A stretch of 64,000 nt of DNA. Source: Pedobacter sp. PACM 27299. GTDB taxonomy: Bacteria; Bacteroidota; Bacteroidia; Sphingobacteriales; Sphingobacteriaceae. Positions 2,830 through 8,537 of this stretch are shown piece after piece; the stretch's first letter is position 1; each line of letters starts with the position of its first letter. Where the stretch lies: the NCBI RefSeq assembly GCF_001412655.1, contig NZ_CP012996.1:3100001-3164000 (forward strand), in the 5' to 3' direction. The position numbers and the translations under genes were made by a program. Under the pieces are notes generated by a model. The model saw only the letters and a list, made by a program, of their open reading frames with translations. It was not told where the DNA came from and ran no database searches.

Positions 2830-5800
2830 TTATTTCCAACCGCCACCCAGGGCTCTGTAAATAGAAATCCGGTTCAATACTTCTTGTTTCTTCGCAAGAA
2901 CTTCATTGATTTCTGCCTCCAAAACATTTCTTTGTGTGGTAATGATGTCCAGATAGGTCACCCTTCCTGCTAAAAACAACGCATTCGCTGCTTTTACGGA
3001 AGCATATAACGCTTTCACTTCTTCAGAGAGGTATTCTCTTTTTGCTTTAATGAAAGCCTGTGATTTCACTGCATCCTGCACTTCATTATAAGCCTTCAGG
3101 ACGATTTTCTCATAATTCTGGAATGCTATCCCATAAGTTGCTTTATAGCTCTCATATTCTGCTCTTATCCGGTGCTGATTGAAAATAGGTGCAGTTATTC
3201 CACCCATTAATCCATAGGCCAGTGCAGTTTGTGGTTGAAACAACTTACCCAGGTCAAAAGACTGCAATCCGATCTGAGGAGCGAGTACAATTGCAGGTAA
3301 GAATGCTGCGCTTGCGGCCTTGATTTCTTTCTGCGATGCAATCAATTCCAGTCCCGCTTGTCTGATGTCGGGCCTCAAAGCAATCATTTGTAAGGGTGTG
3401 CCTTCTGCTAAAGTGCTGCTGGAATTGAATTCTTCTAAACCATTCTTTTTTAGTATAATATTTGATTCAAATTTGCCCGTTAGGAAGTTTAAATGATTTT
3501 GCATCAGACGCTGCTGCTGCAAAACTTCCTGTTCCTTGGCTTTGGAATTGGCAAGCACCGCTTTGAATTGCTGTACGCCTAATTCGGTAGCTACACCCGC
3601 TTCTTTTTGAACCTGGATCAGTTTCAATCCGTTCTGCTGCAGCTGGATATTTCTGCTTAAAATCTCCAGCTCTTCTTCCAGGGCCAGCAATTCAAAATAG
3701 GCCGCGGATACATTGCTGATGAGTTCTGTCTGTACCAGTTTTTGCCCTTCGTAAGAAGCTAGGAACTTGTGAACAGCTGCCTGCTTTTTGTTTTTCAGTT
3801 TACCCCATAAATCCAACTCCCAGGAGGTTTTGAACCCTATGAAATAGTCGGGAAGCGGGTTGGGTACCTGCTCTCCAGGTTTCAGATTAGGGGAGAAATT
3901 GGTGTCGTAATTGCCAATCCCATCAGCAGTGTGGAAACCATATTTCCTTAATCCTCCTTCAATTGCAAGGTCTATATTAGGCAATGATGCACCTTTTCGC
4001 ATTCTTAAGTTTGCTTTCGCCAGTTCAATATGGTGCAAGGTCTGCTTCATATCTGTATTGTTGGCCAATGCAATTTCCAGGATTGCAATGAGCTGCTCAT
4101 CTTTAAAGAATTCCTTCCAGCCGGTATTGGCCACGGTAGTCGTGTCTTTACTGGTTTGAAAGCTTTCCGGCAATGTACGGTGTTCGTATACTGGGATGTC
4201 TTTTTTCATCGAGCAGCTGCTGATCAACATCACTGTCGCAATGGCGACTACCACTTTAGCACTCTTTCCAGCTTTCTTTTTCATCAAAGAGGAGAAGAGC
4301 ACATACAGTCCCGGGATCACGATCACACCAACCACAGTACCGATGATCATCCCGCCCACAGCGGCTGTTCCGATAGAGCGGTTGCCTAATGCACCGGCAC
4401 CAGTAGCAATCATTAAAGGAACCAACCCTGCTGCAAAAGCAAAAGAGGTCATCAAAATAGGGCGCAAACGGGCTACAGAGCCTTCTATTGCCGCATCTAA
4501 GAAAGTCATACCTTGTTCTTGTTTAATAATGGCGTACTCGACGATTAGGATCGCATTTTTTCCGAGTAAACCGATGAGCATCACCAGCGCAACCTGCGCA
4601 TAAATATTGTTTTCCAATCCGAACATCCATAAGAACAGGAAGGCACCAAAAATACCTGCCGGCAAAGAAAGCAATACTGGCAATGGCAGCAGGAAGCTTT
4701 CATATTGTGCAGCAAGGATCAGGTAAACAAACAATAAACACAGTGCGAAGATGTATAAAGCCTGATTTCCGGAAAGAATCTGTTCCCTTGTCATCCCTGA
4801 CCATTCAATCTCATAACCAGCAGGAAGCTTGTCTGCCACTGCCTCTACAGCATCAATCGCCTGCCCGCTGCTGAAACCAGCAGCTGCATCGCCATTCAGC
4901 ATTGCCGAAGAGAACATATTGTAACGCGTAATTTGCTCTGGGCCATAAACGCGTTCCATTGTAATAAAAGTAGAGAAAGGCATGGTTTCTCCCTGGTCAT
5001 TCTTGATGAAAAGGTTTAAGACATCTTCTGGTTTTTCCCGGTAATTAGGCCCGGCTTGCACCATCACCTTGTACATTTGTCCGTAGCGGATAAAGTTGGT
5101 GGCATAATAACTCCCCATTAAGGTTTGAAGGGTGTTCATGGCATTCTCCACACTAATGCCTTTTTTAGCGGCTAAATCATGGTCTACTTTAATCAGGTAC
5201 TGAGGGAAACTGACGTCGAAAGTGGTAAATACATTTCCGATTTCAGGGGTCGCCTTCAAGTCCTCAATGAACTTTTTCATCACTTCGGAAGTCCTGTTCA
5301 GGTCGTCCGCACCGGTTTTATCCAGCAGTCGCAGTTCAAAGCCTGAAGAGTTTCCAAAGCCAGGTACTGTAGGCGGAGGGAAGAACTCAATATCCGCATC
5401 CATGATGTGTGAAGTCGCCTTTTTAAGGTTTTCAATCATGTCAGTTACGGATTCTTTACGGTCTTTCCAGGCCACAAGGTTGATCATACCCATGCCATAA
5501 GAAGCACCGGAAACCTCATTCACCAGGCTATATCCTGCAAGGGTGGACACGGTTTCTACGGCCTGCATCTTTCTGCTGATGGCATCAATTTCATTCAGCA
5601 CCCTTTCCGTTCTGTCTACCGTTGCTCCCGGAGGGGTGGTTACATTCACGTAGATCATGCCCTGATCCTCTGTTGGGATAAATCCGGAAGGCAAAATGCT
5701 GCTCATGCCCCAAGTGGTGACAAAGAACGCAATCAGCAAGCCAAAAGTCAGGATTCTCCGACCTGCAATTTTGGTCAGTAAACCTTTGTAACACCCCGCC

Positions 5801-7377
5801 ATTCTGTTGTAAGCCCTGTTAAAGCCCGCAAAGAACCTCGCCATCCAGCCTTTAGCAGCTGGTTTATCATGGGGAGAACGCAAAATGATCGCACATAGTG
5901 CAGGGGTTAAGGTCAAGGCATTGATTCCGGAAATGATAATGGCAGAAGCCAGTGTTAAGGAGAATTGTCGGTAAAAAATACCTACCGGACCGGAAAGAAA
6001 AGCGACCGGGATAAATACCGCCGACATCACCAGAGTGATCGCGACTACCGGTTTACCCACTTCTTTCATCGCCGCAATAGTGGCTTCCATCGGCTGCAGG
6101 TGTTCTTCTTCCATTTTGGAATACACGGCTTCCACCACTACAATGGCGTTATCTACCACAATACCAATCGCCAGGACGAGTGCAAACAGGGTCAGTAAGT
6201 TGATGGAGAAGCCCAGCATTTGCATGAAAAACAAGGCTCCAATCAGACAAACAGGAACCGCCAGTGCCGGAATTAAAGTGGAACGGAAATCCTGTAAGAA
6301 GATAAATACCACAATGAATACCAGGATGAATGCTTCAAGTAAGGTGATCAATACGCTTGATATTGAGGCATCAAGGAATCTGGAGACGTCGTAACCCATG
6401 GTGTATTTCATCCCTGGAGGGAAAGAGTTTTCCTGTAAAGCAGCCATTCGCTCTTTTACATTTTTGATGACTTCCTGTGCGTTTGATCCCGGCAATTGTT
6501 TGAGCATGATAGAAGCAGAAGGCCTGCCATCCGTCTTAGAGACCATCTCATAGTCGAGTGAACCAAACTCAACATCTGCGACGTCTTTAATCCGGATGAT
6601 AGAACCATCTGCGTTTGCCCTGATTGGAATGTTTTTGTATTCTTCAGCTTCCGAAAACTTACCCGGATAACGCAATACATATTGCTGCATATTGATGGAT
6701 TTATCTGAACCAATTCCCGTTTGACCCGGAGCTGCTTCCACATTTTGCTTTCTTAAAGCGGCAATGACATCATCAGAAGAGATGTTGTAAGCCGCAAGAC
6801 GATCTGGTTTTAGCCATACACGCATGGCATAATCCCTTAAGCCCATGATCTGCGCAAAACCAACACCTTCTATTCGTTTCAATTCTTTTAAGATATTGAT
6901 ATCAGTAAAGTTGTAGATAAAGCGCTCATCTGCAGTTTTATCGTCGCTGTATATGTTTAAATACATCAGCATGCTGTTCACTTCCTTTTCAGTCGTTACT
7001 CCGGCTTTGATTACCTCTTCAGGCAATTCATCGAGCACAGTAGTCACCCTGTTCTGCACGTTAACCGCGGCAATGTCAGGGTCGGTGCCCACTTTAAAGA
7101 AAACCTGGATCAGGGTAGTTCCGTTATTGGTAGACACAGAACTCATGTAGGTCATTCCGGCTACACCATTGATGGCGCGCTCCAAAGGAATCGCAACAGC
7201 ATTGGTACTTACTTCGGCATTTGCACCGGTATAATTGGCCGTCACCACTACGGAGGGCGGAACGATGTCCGGGAATTGGGTAACCGGCAGGGTAAATAGC
7301 GCCAGTAAACCCAACAGGGTGATAAATAGAGAAATAACCAGCGATAATACCGGTCGTTTTATAAATTGTTCAAACAT
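2830..7377 (-). CDS. RND (HAE1/AcrB-type) efflux pump fused in frame to a TolC/OprM-type outer-membrane lipoprotein
   Basis: One uninterrupted 1515-codon frame. Residues 1 to about 1030 are a complete hydrophobe/amphiphile RND permease: FIKRPVLSLVISLF at TM1, porter and docking loops, TM4 GIVVDNAIVVVEAV (D409-N410), and a second half beginning RILTFGLLIAFF. Immediately after the last membrane helix (GLYVLFSSL) comes M1032-KKKAGKSAK, a hydrophobic stretch and the lipobox LISSC (C1055). This is a textbook SPII signal, followed by about 460 residues of outer-membrane efflux protein with two OEP repeats and long coiled-coil helices. The permease C-terminus is cytoplasmic, so the internal signal has the right orientation to be exported and cut by LspA. 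Alternatively the channel starts independently at M1032. The upstream adaptor gene is 26 bp away (same operon). The pump should export drugs, detergents or bile-like compounds. Fused pumps occur elsewhere in Bacteroidota, to my knowledge. The reading frame shows no frameshift. Confidence 0.92.
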   Translation of the reverse strand: MFEQFIKRPVLSLVISLFITLLGLLALFTLPVTQFPDIVPPSVVVTANYTGANAEVSTNAVAIPLERAINGVAGMTYMSSVSTNNGTTLIQVFFKVGTDPDIAAVNVQNRVTTVLDELPEEVIKAGVTTEKEVNSMLMYLNIYSDDKTADERFIYNFTDINILKELKRIEGVGFAQIMGLRDYAMRVWLKPDRLAAYNISSDDVIAALRKQNVEAAPGQTGIGSDKSINMQQYVLRYPGKFSEAEEYKNIPIRANADGSIIRIKDVADVEFGSLDYEMVSKTDGRPSASIMLKQLPGSNAQEVIKNVKERMAALQENSFPPGMKYTMGYDVSRFLDASISSVLITLLEAFILVFIVVFIFLQDFRSTLIPALAVPVCLIGALFFMQMLGFSINLLTLFALVLAIGIVVDNAIVVVEAVYSKMEEEHLQPMEATIAAMKEVGKPVVAITLVMSAVFIPVAFLSGPVGIFYRQFSLTLASAIIISGINALTLTPALCAIILRSPHDKPAAKGWMARFFAGFNRAYNRMAGCYKGLLTKIAGRRILTFGLLIAFFVTTWGMSSILPSGFIPTEDQGMIYVNVTTPPGATVDRTERVLNEIDAISRKMQAVETVSTLAGYSLVNEVSGASYGMGMINLVAWKDRKESVTDMIENLKKATSHIMDADIEFFPPPTVPGFGNSSGFELRLLDKTGADDLNRTSEVMKKFIEDLKATPEIGNVFTTFDVSFPQYLIKVDHDLAAKKGISVENAMNTLQTLMGSYYATNFIRYGQMYKVMVQAGPNYREKPEDVLNLFIKNDQGETMPFSTFITMERVYGPEQITRYNMFSSAMLNGDAAAGFSSGQAIDAVEAVADKLPAGYEIEWSGMTREQILSGNQALYIFALCLLFVYLILAAQYESFLLPLPVLLSLPAGIFGAFLFLWMFGLENNIYAQVALVMLIGLLGKNAILIVEYAIIKQEQGMTFLDAAIEGSVARLRPILMTSFAFAAGLVPLMIATGAGALGNRSIGTAAVGGMIIGTVVGVIVIPGLYVLFSSLMKKKAGKSAKVVVAIATVMLISSCSMKKDIPVYEHRTLPESFQTSKDTTTVANTGWKEFFKDEQLIAILEIALANNTDMKQTLHHIELAKANLRMRKGASLPNIDLAIEGGLRKYGFHTADGIGNYDTNFSPNLKPGEQVPNPLPDYFIGFKTSWELDLWGKLKNKKQAAVHKFLASYEGQKLVQTELISNVSAAYFELLALEEELEILSRNIQLQQNGLKLIQVQKEAGVATELGVQQFKAVLANSKAKEQEVLQQQRLMQNHLNFLTGKFESNIILKKNGLEEFNSSSTLAEGTPLQMIALRPDIRQAGLELIASQKEIKAASAAFLPAIVLAPQIGLQSFDLGKLFQPQTALAYGLMGGITAPIFNQHRIRAEYESYKATYGIAFQNYEKIVLKAYNEVQDAVKSQAFIKAKREYLSEEVKALYASVKAANALFLAGRVTYLDIITTQRNVLEAEINEVLAKKQEVLNRISIYRALGGGWK

Positions 7378-7403: not shown

Positions 7404-8537
7404 TTAGTTTTTAGCGATAGGGTTTGTTTTGATGTCCATTGGTTTAACCGTCAGACCATCGCGCAGGCTTTGAGTACCTTCATAGACTATCTTGTCTGAT
7501 TTTTTTAGCCCGGAGTTCACCATATAATAATGTCCAATACGCTGTCCAGCTTCAAATGGTGTCATTTTTATGGTGTTATTCGCATTCAGCACATAAACAT
7601 AAGTCCGGTCCTGAATCTCAAACACAGACTTTTGGTGAACCGCCAATATTTCTCCTGTTTCTACCGGGACACTGATTTTACCGGAAGCACCATGTTTTAA
7701 CAGTCCCTCTGCATTTGGAAAGCTCGCTTTCAGCGATAAAGAGCCAGTCTGACTCGCAAATTCACTTTCGGCAAATCTTGCCATCCCTTCAAAAGGATAA
7801 ACGACGCCATTCGCTAAGGTCAGCTTAACCTGCTTTTTGAAGTTGTTTTTTGAGTAAGCAATGTCGCTGGCAATATTCAGGTATTCCTTCTCTGTGATCG
7901 AAAAATACACGTTTACCGTGCTTAAATCAGATACAGAGGTCAGGAGGGAACCTTCCTCCAATAAACTTCCTGCTTTTAAAGGCATTCTGTCAATCCTTCC
8001 TGTGAAAGGAGATTTGATCAGGGTATGAGAAAGTCTTGATTTTGCGTAACGCAATACGGATCTGGCTTCGGCCACACGTGATTCTGCAGCTTTCAGCTTA
8101 GCAGCGCCTAAATCAAGTTCTGTTTTGGAAACAATATTACTCTGCACCAAAACCTTAGTTCTTTCTTGTTCTAAATCTACAGTTTTTGCATCTGCGATGG
8201 CATTGTTCAATACCGCTTCGGCTTTACTCAAATCCGCTTTGTATTCCTCATCATTGATTTTGAAGAGGATTTGTCCGGCTTTAACCGCTGAACCTTCTTC
8301 TACATAGATCTTTTCCAGGAATCCAGATAATCTGGACCTTACCTCTACGTTCTTTGCAGCCTGGATATCGGCAATGTATTCTTTAAAAATCAGGGTGTCT
8401 AATACGCTGACAGCAGCGACAGGGACGGTTTTGGCCTGGTCTGCAGCAAGAGGCTCCTGGCTCTTTGAAGTACAGCCGGAAATGGTAACGGCAGCTAAAA
8501 TTGGGAAATAAGCTAAATACTTAACTTTCATGGTCAT
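7404..8537 (-). CDS. RND efflux periplasmic adaptor (membrane fusion protein), lipoprotein
   Basis: A 377-residue AcrA/MexA-type adaptor that joins pump and channel. Seen: a lipobox ISGC giving C22; EVRSRLSGFLEKIYVEEGSAVKAGQILFKIND, whose halves match the first lipoyl half-motif (written here only as a phrase around residues 66-97), a coiled-coil hairpin at about residues 100-165, the second lipoyl half with SPFTGRIDRMPLKAGSLLEEG, and the beta-barrel and membrane-proximal domains to residue 370. It is the first gene of the efflux operon, and the pump-channel gene follows after 26 bp. The start may be M1 or M3; both leave the same lipobox. No regulator gene adjoins the operon, so its control is not visible here. 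Confidence 0.93.
   Translation of the reverse strand: MTMKVKYLAYFPILAAVTISGCTSKSQEPLAADQAKTVPVAAVSVLDTLIFKEYIADIQAAKNVEVRSRLSGFLEKIYVEEGSAVKAGQILFKINDEEYKADLSKAEAVLNNAIADAKTVDLEQERTKVLVQSNIVSKTELDLGAAKLKAAESRVAEARSVLRYAKSRLSHTLIKSPFTGRIDRMPLKAGSLLEEGSLLTSVSDLSTVNVYFSITEKEYLNIASDIAYSKNNFKKQVKLTLANGVVYPFEGMARFAESEFASQTGSLSLKASFPNAEGLLKHGASGKISVPVETGEILAVHQKSVFEIQDRTYVYVLNANNTIKMTPFEAGQRIGHYYMVNSGLKKSDKIVYEGTQSLRDGLTVKPMDIKTNPIAKN

Follow-up and report, generated by a model that had tools for sequence, protein, structure and literature searches.

A permease and a channel in one reading frame

The window analysed here, a stretch of 64,000 nucleotides from Pedobacter sp. PACM 27299, contains a single open reading frame in which an RND permease is followed by an outer-membrane channel, and comparison with homologues makes it very probable that the product is a two-part polyprotein cut by signal peptidase II. 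The initial annotation had described an unbroken frame through a complete permease and a complete channel at positions 2830 to 7377, and both the listing of open reading frames and the Pfam and NCBIfam profiles bear this out; the coordinates hold as well, although the annotation was silent on the strand, which is the minus strand. The frame runs uninterrupted from ATG to stop over 1515 codons (1515 aa).

Residues 1-1028 (positions 4294 to 7377, minus strand) form a full-length HAE-1 type RND permease, as they are matched by Pfam ACR_tran over exactly this range (1027 bits against a cut-off of 28) and by NCBIfam TIGR00915 over residues 2-1041 (1060 bits, cut-off 940), while a narrower permease model, NF000282, stays below its cut-off (1187 against 1250). 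Residues 1055-1515 (positions 2833 to 4215, minus strand) form a NodT/OprM-type outer-membrane channel that is likewise full-length according to TIGR01845 (outer_NodT), which matches residues 1050-1513 with positions 5-460 of its 460 (241 bits, cut-off 210). The best stretch for Pfam OEP on the fused frame covers residues 1100-1301, and the OprM chains of PDB match the channel half with a best E of 5.7e-45. The coverage by TIGR00915 and TIGR01845 thus indicates that both halves are complete. The calculated masses are 166.5 kDa for the whole chain, 115.0 kDa for residues 1-1054 and 51.6 kDa for residues 1055-1515.

The best named homologues of the fused protein are found in P. gandavensis (91%) and P. 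polysacchareus (94%). Among the best 120 of 7999 homologues most source names label the whole chain as permease or exporter, and the channel half is therefore easily missed in channel inventories of these species.

A periplasmic adaptor (membrane fusion protein) is encoded by a separate gene upstream on the same strand (positions 7404 to 8537; TIGR01730, 238 bits against a cut-off of 95). Only 26 bases lie between this gene and the fused frame, and the two probably constitute one operon. With an adaptor encoded beside the permease, the locus has the composition of a tripartite RND pump. By eye, the N-terminus of the adaptor also resembles a lipoprotein signal (SGC).

A lipoprotein-like signal at the junction

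Between the two halves the initial annotation had reported M1032, a basic stretch, a hydrophobic core and the lipobox LISSC with C1055, and all of these are present. The basic linker (residues 1029-1041, positions 4255 to 4293, minus strand) has a net charge of +5 and is expected on the cytoplasmic side, as the topology of AcrB suggests. It is followed by the hydrophobic core of the putative internal signal peptide, 13 residues long (residues 1042-1054, positions 4216 to 4254, minus strand), and then by C1055 (positions 4213 to 4215, minus strand), which is the predicted lipidated Cys and the new N-terminus after cutting by signal peptidase II.

The junction thus has the anatomy of a signal peptidase II substrate, i.e. 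a basic n-region, a short hydrophobic core and a lipobox Cys. Signal peptidase II normally acts on N-terminal signals, and in this respect the fused protein departs from its substrates, as the signal occupies residues 1029-1054 instead of the protein's own N-terminus; the segment resembles a substrate, yet is unusual by location.

Conservation of the junction was examined in the best 120 of 7999 matches to query residues 900-1250, a search that favours fusions because the query covers both halves (at least 1400 aa in 112 of the 120). A Cys is aligned with C1055 in 120/120 of these homologues, and the residue at position -1 is S, A or G in all 120 as well. In an alignment of 37 fusions from the two larger fused groups described below (clades A and B), no column from 1036 to 1086 other than C1055 has zero entropy.

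The initial annotation had suggested looking for homologous fusions and for conservation of the lipobox in them. Such fusions were found: we collected 56 distinct HAE-1 fusions (46 of clade A, 6 of clade B, and L101, L121, L156 and L157), and every one of them retains the lipoprotein-signal site. Our first motif rule located the Cys in 55 of the 56, with a lipobox in all 55, and missed L087 (LLYSC) because of a proline in the core. A second rule, requiring a Cys, a lipobox, ten uncharged residues and a basic stretch upstream, is passed by L087 too, so that the lipobox is present in 56/56; this rule matched all 56 junctions and nothing else in the remaining 65,487 residues.

The linker itself is variable in some fusions. 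A long acidic, Gly-rich insert is seen in the cytoplasmic linker of L071/L203, P0011, P0014, P0015 and P0018, whose listed lengths exceed that of the window protein by up to 43 residues.

Distribution and origin of the fusion

The fusion is present in at least 46 of 201 family genomes and under six genus codes (g1, g4, g15, g16, g18 and g20). The junction is one open frame in all 46, of which 30 loci contain only part of the gene, and it is also open in 35 named loci. Named carriers include Pedobacter, Arcticibacter, Parapedobacter, Olivibacter, Sphingobacterium and Rhinopithecimicrobium. The spread is patchy: just 2 of the 36 genomes with the window's own genus code (g1) are fused, and a single code (g16) accounts for 31 of the 46 clade A fusions.

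Several relatives possess the same two genes in split form. In L073, L082, L083 and L089-L096 (permease identity 65-72%) the channel is the next gene, starts near the permease stop and carries a lipoprotein-like signal at its N-terminus. In L073, which belongs to the window's own genus and is placed outside clade A on the permease tree, the permease and channel frames are in register with a single stop between them. Many other split pairs also lie in the same frame with one stop between (L074-L080, L082, L083, L097-L100, L103, L109 and L116), as seen with a search that itself favours this arrangement. The split channel genes pass the first motif rule in 63 of 75 cases, 56 of these with a strict lipobox. 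Among the 12 that fail are some with Gln, Asn or Pro near the Cys, as well as L137 and L143, which were scanned inside the channel; the split set is thus less than perfect as a control, and the rule is a strict one.

The permease tree was built by a quick method from 104 rows, in which 19 of the 46 clade A fusions stand alongside every other fusion and all 75 split rows. The fused or split state requires six changes on this tree, a count that cannot separate gain from loss: one for clade A, to which the window belongs (99*), one for clade B (99*) and one each for the single genomes L101, L121, L156 and L157. The forks near L101, L156 and L157 are weakly supported, and on our reading of the tree the number of changes would fall to five if the fork with support 90 that parts L101 from clade A is wrong. 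Clade B represents a different HAE-1 paralogue, with a permease about 48% identical to that of the window; its members (L081 and L084-L088) come from six family genomes and have the lipoboxes AYSC, AYAC, LYSC and LSAC. The nesting of small fused groups in split groups suggests that these are gains, and some of the single-genome fusions may be young. Two metagenome-assembled Bacteroidia, L222 and L225, have permeases 67% and 66% identical to that of the window, one being fused and the other split, which is possibly a recent change of state.

Parallel fusions of the CusA/CzcA type

Three further RND-TolC fusions, of the CusA/CzcA type, were identified on contig C1 of the same genome (L011 at 1863832, L013 at 3663039 and L015 at 1735213; 1452-1470 aa). 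Each scores over the TIGR00914 cut-off and shows ACR_tran and then OEP, which is also above its cut-off. From a sample of 149 genomes of the class we took 30 more loci, the best of the 64 matches listed, giving 33 together with the genome's own three. As L166 and L167 stop at the permease and L165 repeats L011, there are 30 distinct frames that extend at least 250 residues past the permease, and 29 of them match the channel part of L011, L013 or L015 by BLAST (the shorter L188 does not).

All 30 frames possess a basic linker, a hydrophobic core and an A, G or S followed by Gln at the junction. A strict signal peptidase I-type rule is likewise matched at 30/30 junctions, where the remainder of the same proteins would predict 0.015 matches per sequence window; in L168, L180 and L183 the script marked an earlier A/G/S-Gln pair than the site chosen by eye. 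In Bacteroidetes, according to PMC5837995, cleaved N-termini characteristically begin with Gln, which follows the signal peptidase I site and is cyclised to pyroglutamate after cleavage; neither RND nor TolC occurs in the main text of this paper. A residue tied to a new N-terminus is here kept at an internal site, which argues for cleavage there, and we infer that the Czc-type fusions are cut internally by signal peptidase I.

Possible benefit of the fusion

In known tripartite pumps the permease and the channel are trimers and the adaptor is present in six copies, so it is precisely the pair with equal copy numbers that has been fused. We scanned 120 loci from -50 to 400 bases upstream, some named loci duplicating the genes of unnamed ones, and found the adaptor as a separate frame just upstream in 56/56 fused loci with upstream DNA (57 of the 120 loci being fused). 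This fits a putative role of the fusion in 1:1 supply. On balance we lean towards the view that Bacteroidota have repeatedly co-opted general signal peptidases for efflux-pump polyproteins, with signal peptidase II serving HAE-1 pumps whose channels are lipoproteins and signal peptidase I serving Czc-type pumps whose channels are TolC-like, and that joining the equal-copy subunits fixes their ratio and frees each channel beside its own pump.

It is quite possible, if short of probable, that the chain is cut as proposed and the fusion is nevertheless a neutral compaction of the operon, brought about by a lost stop codon and giving no 1:1 benefit. Split relatives with short gaps between the genes, often in register, would be in line with such an origin, and an operon of separate genes is generally known to provide a near-equal supply already. 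However, neutral compaction does not readily account for six changes of state among HAE-1 pumps in addition to the Czc-type fusions, with the pump joined to the channel every time and the adaptor a separate frame in all 56 fused loci with upstream DNA, although gains and losses behind these changes are indistinguishable on the tree.

Alternatives to a processed chain

The initial annotation had also considered that ribosomes re-initiate at M1032 (ATG at 4284-4282, minus strand), in which case the channel half would be translated separately and the fused chain would be a minor or dead-end product. This is very unlikely. The ATG with its basic codons does resemble the start of a lipoprotein gene, both in the window and in 8 of the 10 nearest named loci (L195-L204), and the window species shares an ATG at this place with most of its close relatives in Pedobacter; however, it is absent from Pedobacter sp. 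B4-66 (L202) and Arcticibacter (L201), and further away the codon is not conserved. Met occupies column 1032, in a gappy part of the alignment, in only 15 of the 120 best homologues; of 88 distinct junction peptides, only 24 have a Met at a good distance before the Cys. Similarly, just 12 of 55 scored fusions have an ATG in the region where a start would be plausible, and 9 of the 30 Czc-type frames have a Met there. Some ATG, GTG or TTG is nevertheless present in this region in 45/55 fusions, so codon counts alone cannot dismiss unusual starts.

In a comparison of eight close relatives, codons 1019-1040 taken together do not change slowly at silent sites: their synonymous change is 0.49, at the 85th percentile for windows of 22 codons, and the gene as a whole averages 0.42. 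The last ten of these codons (1031-1040) fall below that average, with a value of 0.26 based on 6 scored codons. To us, this pattern gives no clear indication that a start signal overlaps the coding sequence. The contrast between C1055 (120/120) and M1032 (15/120) disfavours re-initiation, which these homologues, fusions and silent sites do not support as a conserved feature.

A chain that is never cut, with the core acting as a thirteenth membrane helix and the channel staying tethered to the pump, is equally improbable. The continuous frame retained across many genera would agree with a tether, but the uncharged run before the Cys is short, 13-17 residues with a median of 14 in the 55 scored fusions; the last permease helix has a median length of 29 by a crude measure over all 131 fused and split rows, which failed for at least one of them (minimum -1). 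A tether also gives no reason for an invariant Cys preceded by S, A or G. Moreover, only 31 residues separate C1055 from the conserved W1087 and OprM-like channels are located in the outer membrane, a geometry that would speak against a tether. With its conserved lipobox and short core, the segment looks less like a thirteenth helix than like a signal peptide maintained by selection.

Finally, an artefact, be it a missed stop codon, which the initial annotation had named as its possible undoing, or a misassembly, has nothing in its favour and can be ruled out, since the Pedobacter sp. PACM 27299 genome is one contig of 6.1 Mb and the junction is open in the 46 family genomes and 35 named loci.

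Proposed processing by signal peptidase II

The proposal of the initial annotation that one chain is made and then cut by signal peptidase II is supported by the Cys and the preceding S, A or G in 120/120 homologues, by the lipobox in 56/56 HAE-1 fusions, by the six changes between the fused and split states with the site kept, and by the presence of Lgt and LspA. The invariant Cys, the kept lipobox and the repeated changes of state together favour this reading over the others.

On the reading of a chain that is processed, the adaptor gene and the fused frame would be transcribed as a probable operon and the latter translated into one 166-kDa chain, whose permease would insert with its C-terminal end in the cytoplasm, where the C-terminus of AcrB-type RND permeases lies. 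Beyond the last permease helix, the basic linker and the short core would then act as an internal lipoprotein signal peptide and, as the conserved anatomy suggests, send the channel half to the periplasm. Lgt would lipidate C1055 and signal peptidase II would cut before it, yielding a 115-kDa pump and a 52-kDa lipoprotein. By analogy with known pumps, the channel would finally move to the outer membrane, and the trimers of both would join the separately made adaptor. The topology, the cutting, the outer-membrane sorting and the benefit are the parts of this path that we infer.

The genome contains an Lgt gene and two genes of the LspA family (Peptidase_A8; C1:5755590-5756096 and C1:4279617-4280048). 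We considered the second LspA as a dedicated enzyme and rejected this, as the copy number does not go along with the fusion across 201 family genomes. These have one or two copies, and three in one genome; as read from the tables, the fusion-rich g16 has mostly one copy and g1 mostly two.

Comparison with known systems and implications

Like AcrAB-TolC and MexAB-OprM, the window locus combines an HAE-1 permease, a NodT/OprM channel and an adaptor whose gene is adjacent. In those pumps, however, the permease and the channel are separate proteins, whereas here they share one frame with an internal signal peptide. The CusA/CzcA-type RND-TolC fusions of Bacteroidota are similar in having the permease and the channel in one frame with a signal peptide at the junction, but they belong to the heavy-metal RND branch and have no junction lipobox; there, Gln is instead the +1 residue of a signal peptidase I-type site.

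Another comparison is provided by FbcH of Bradyrhizobium, a polyprotein of cytochrome b and cytochrome c1 that is split at an internal signal peptide by signal peptidase I. None of the open-licence papers among the matches listed dealt with it. Like the window protein, FbcH joins a membrane protein of many helices to a periplasmic partner through an internal signal peptide; it differs in its enzyme, in being part of a respiratory complex and in its inner-membrane product, whereas the window protein would depend on signal peptidase II and give an outer-membrane lipoprotein. For a polyprotein of the FbcH type, the one frame is observed in the window and the two mature proteins are predicted.

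Each part of the locus is ordinary. In titles, abstracts and passages of open-licence PMC papers, including passages of PMC8277102 and PMC5837995, we found no description of a natural RND-channel fusion with an internal signal, and the same open-licence material yielded no signal peptidase II counterpart of FbcH-type cleavage.

If the cut occurs, signal peptidases would be the processing enzymes of a true bacterial polyprotein, the parts of which end in two different membranes. It would also mean that a signal attached to a protein of 12 helices is acceptable to signal peptidase II, and these fusions would offer a natural test of stoichiometry versus local release in the assembly of efflux pumps.
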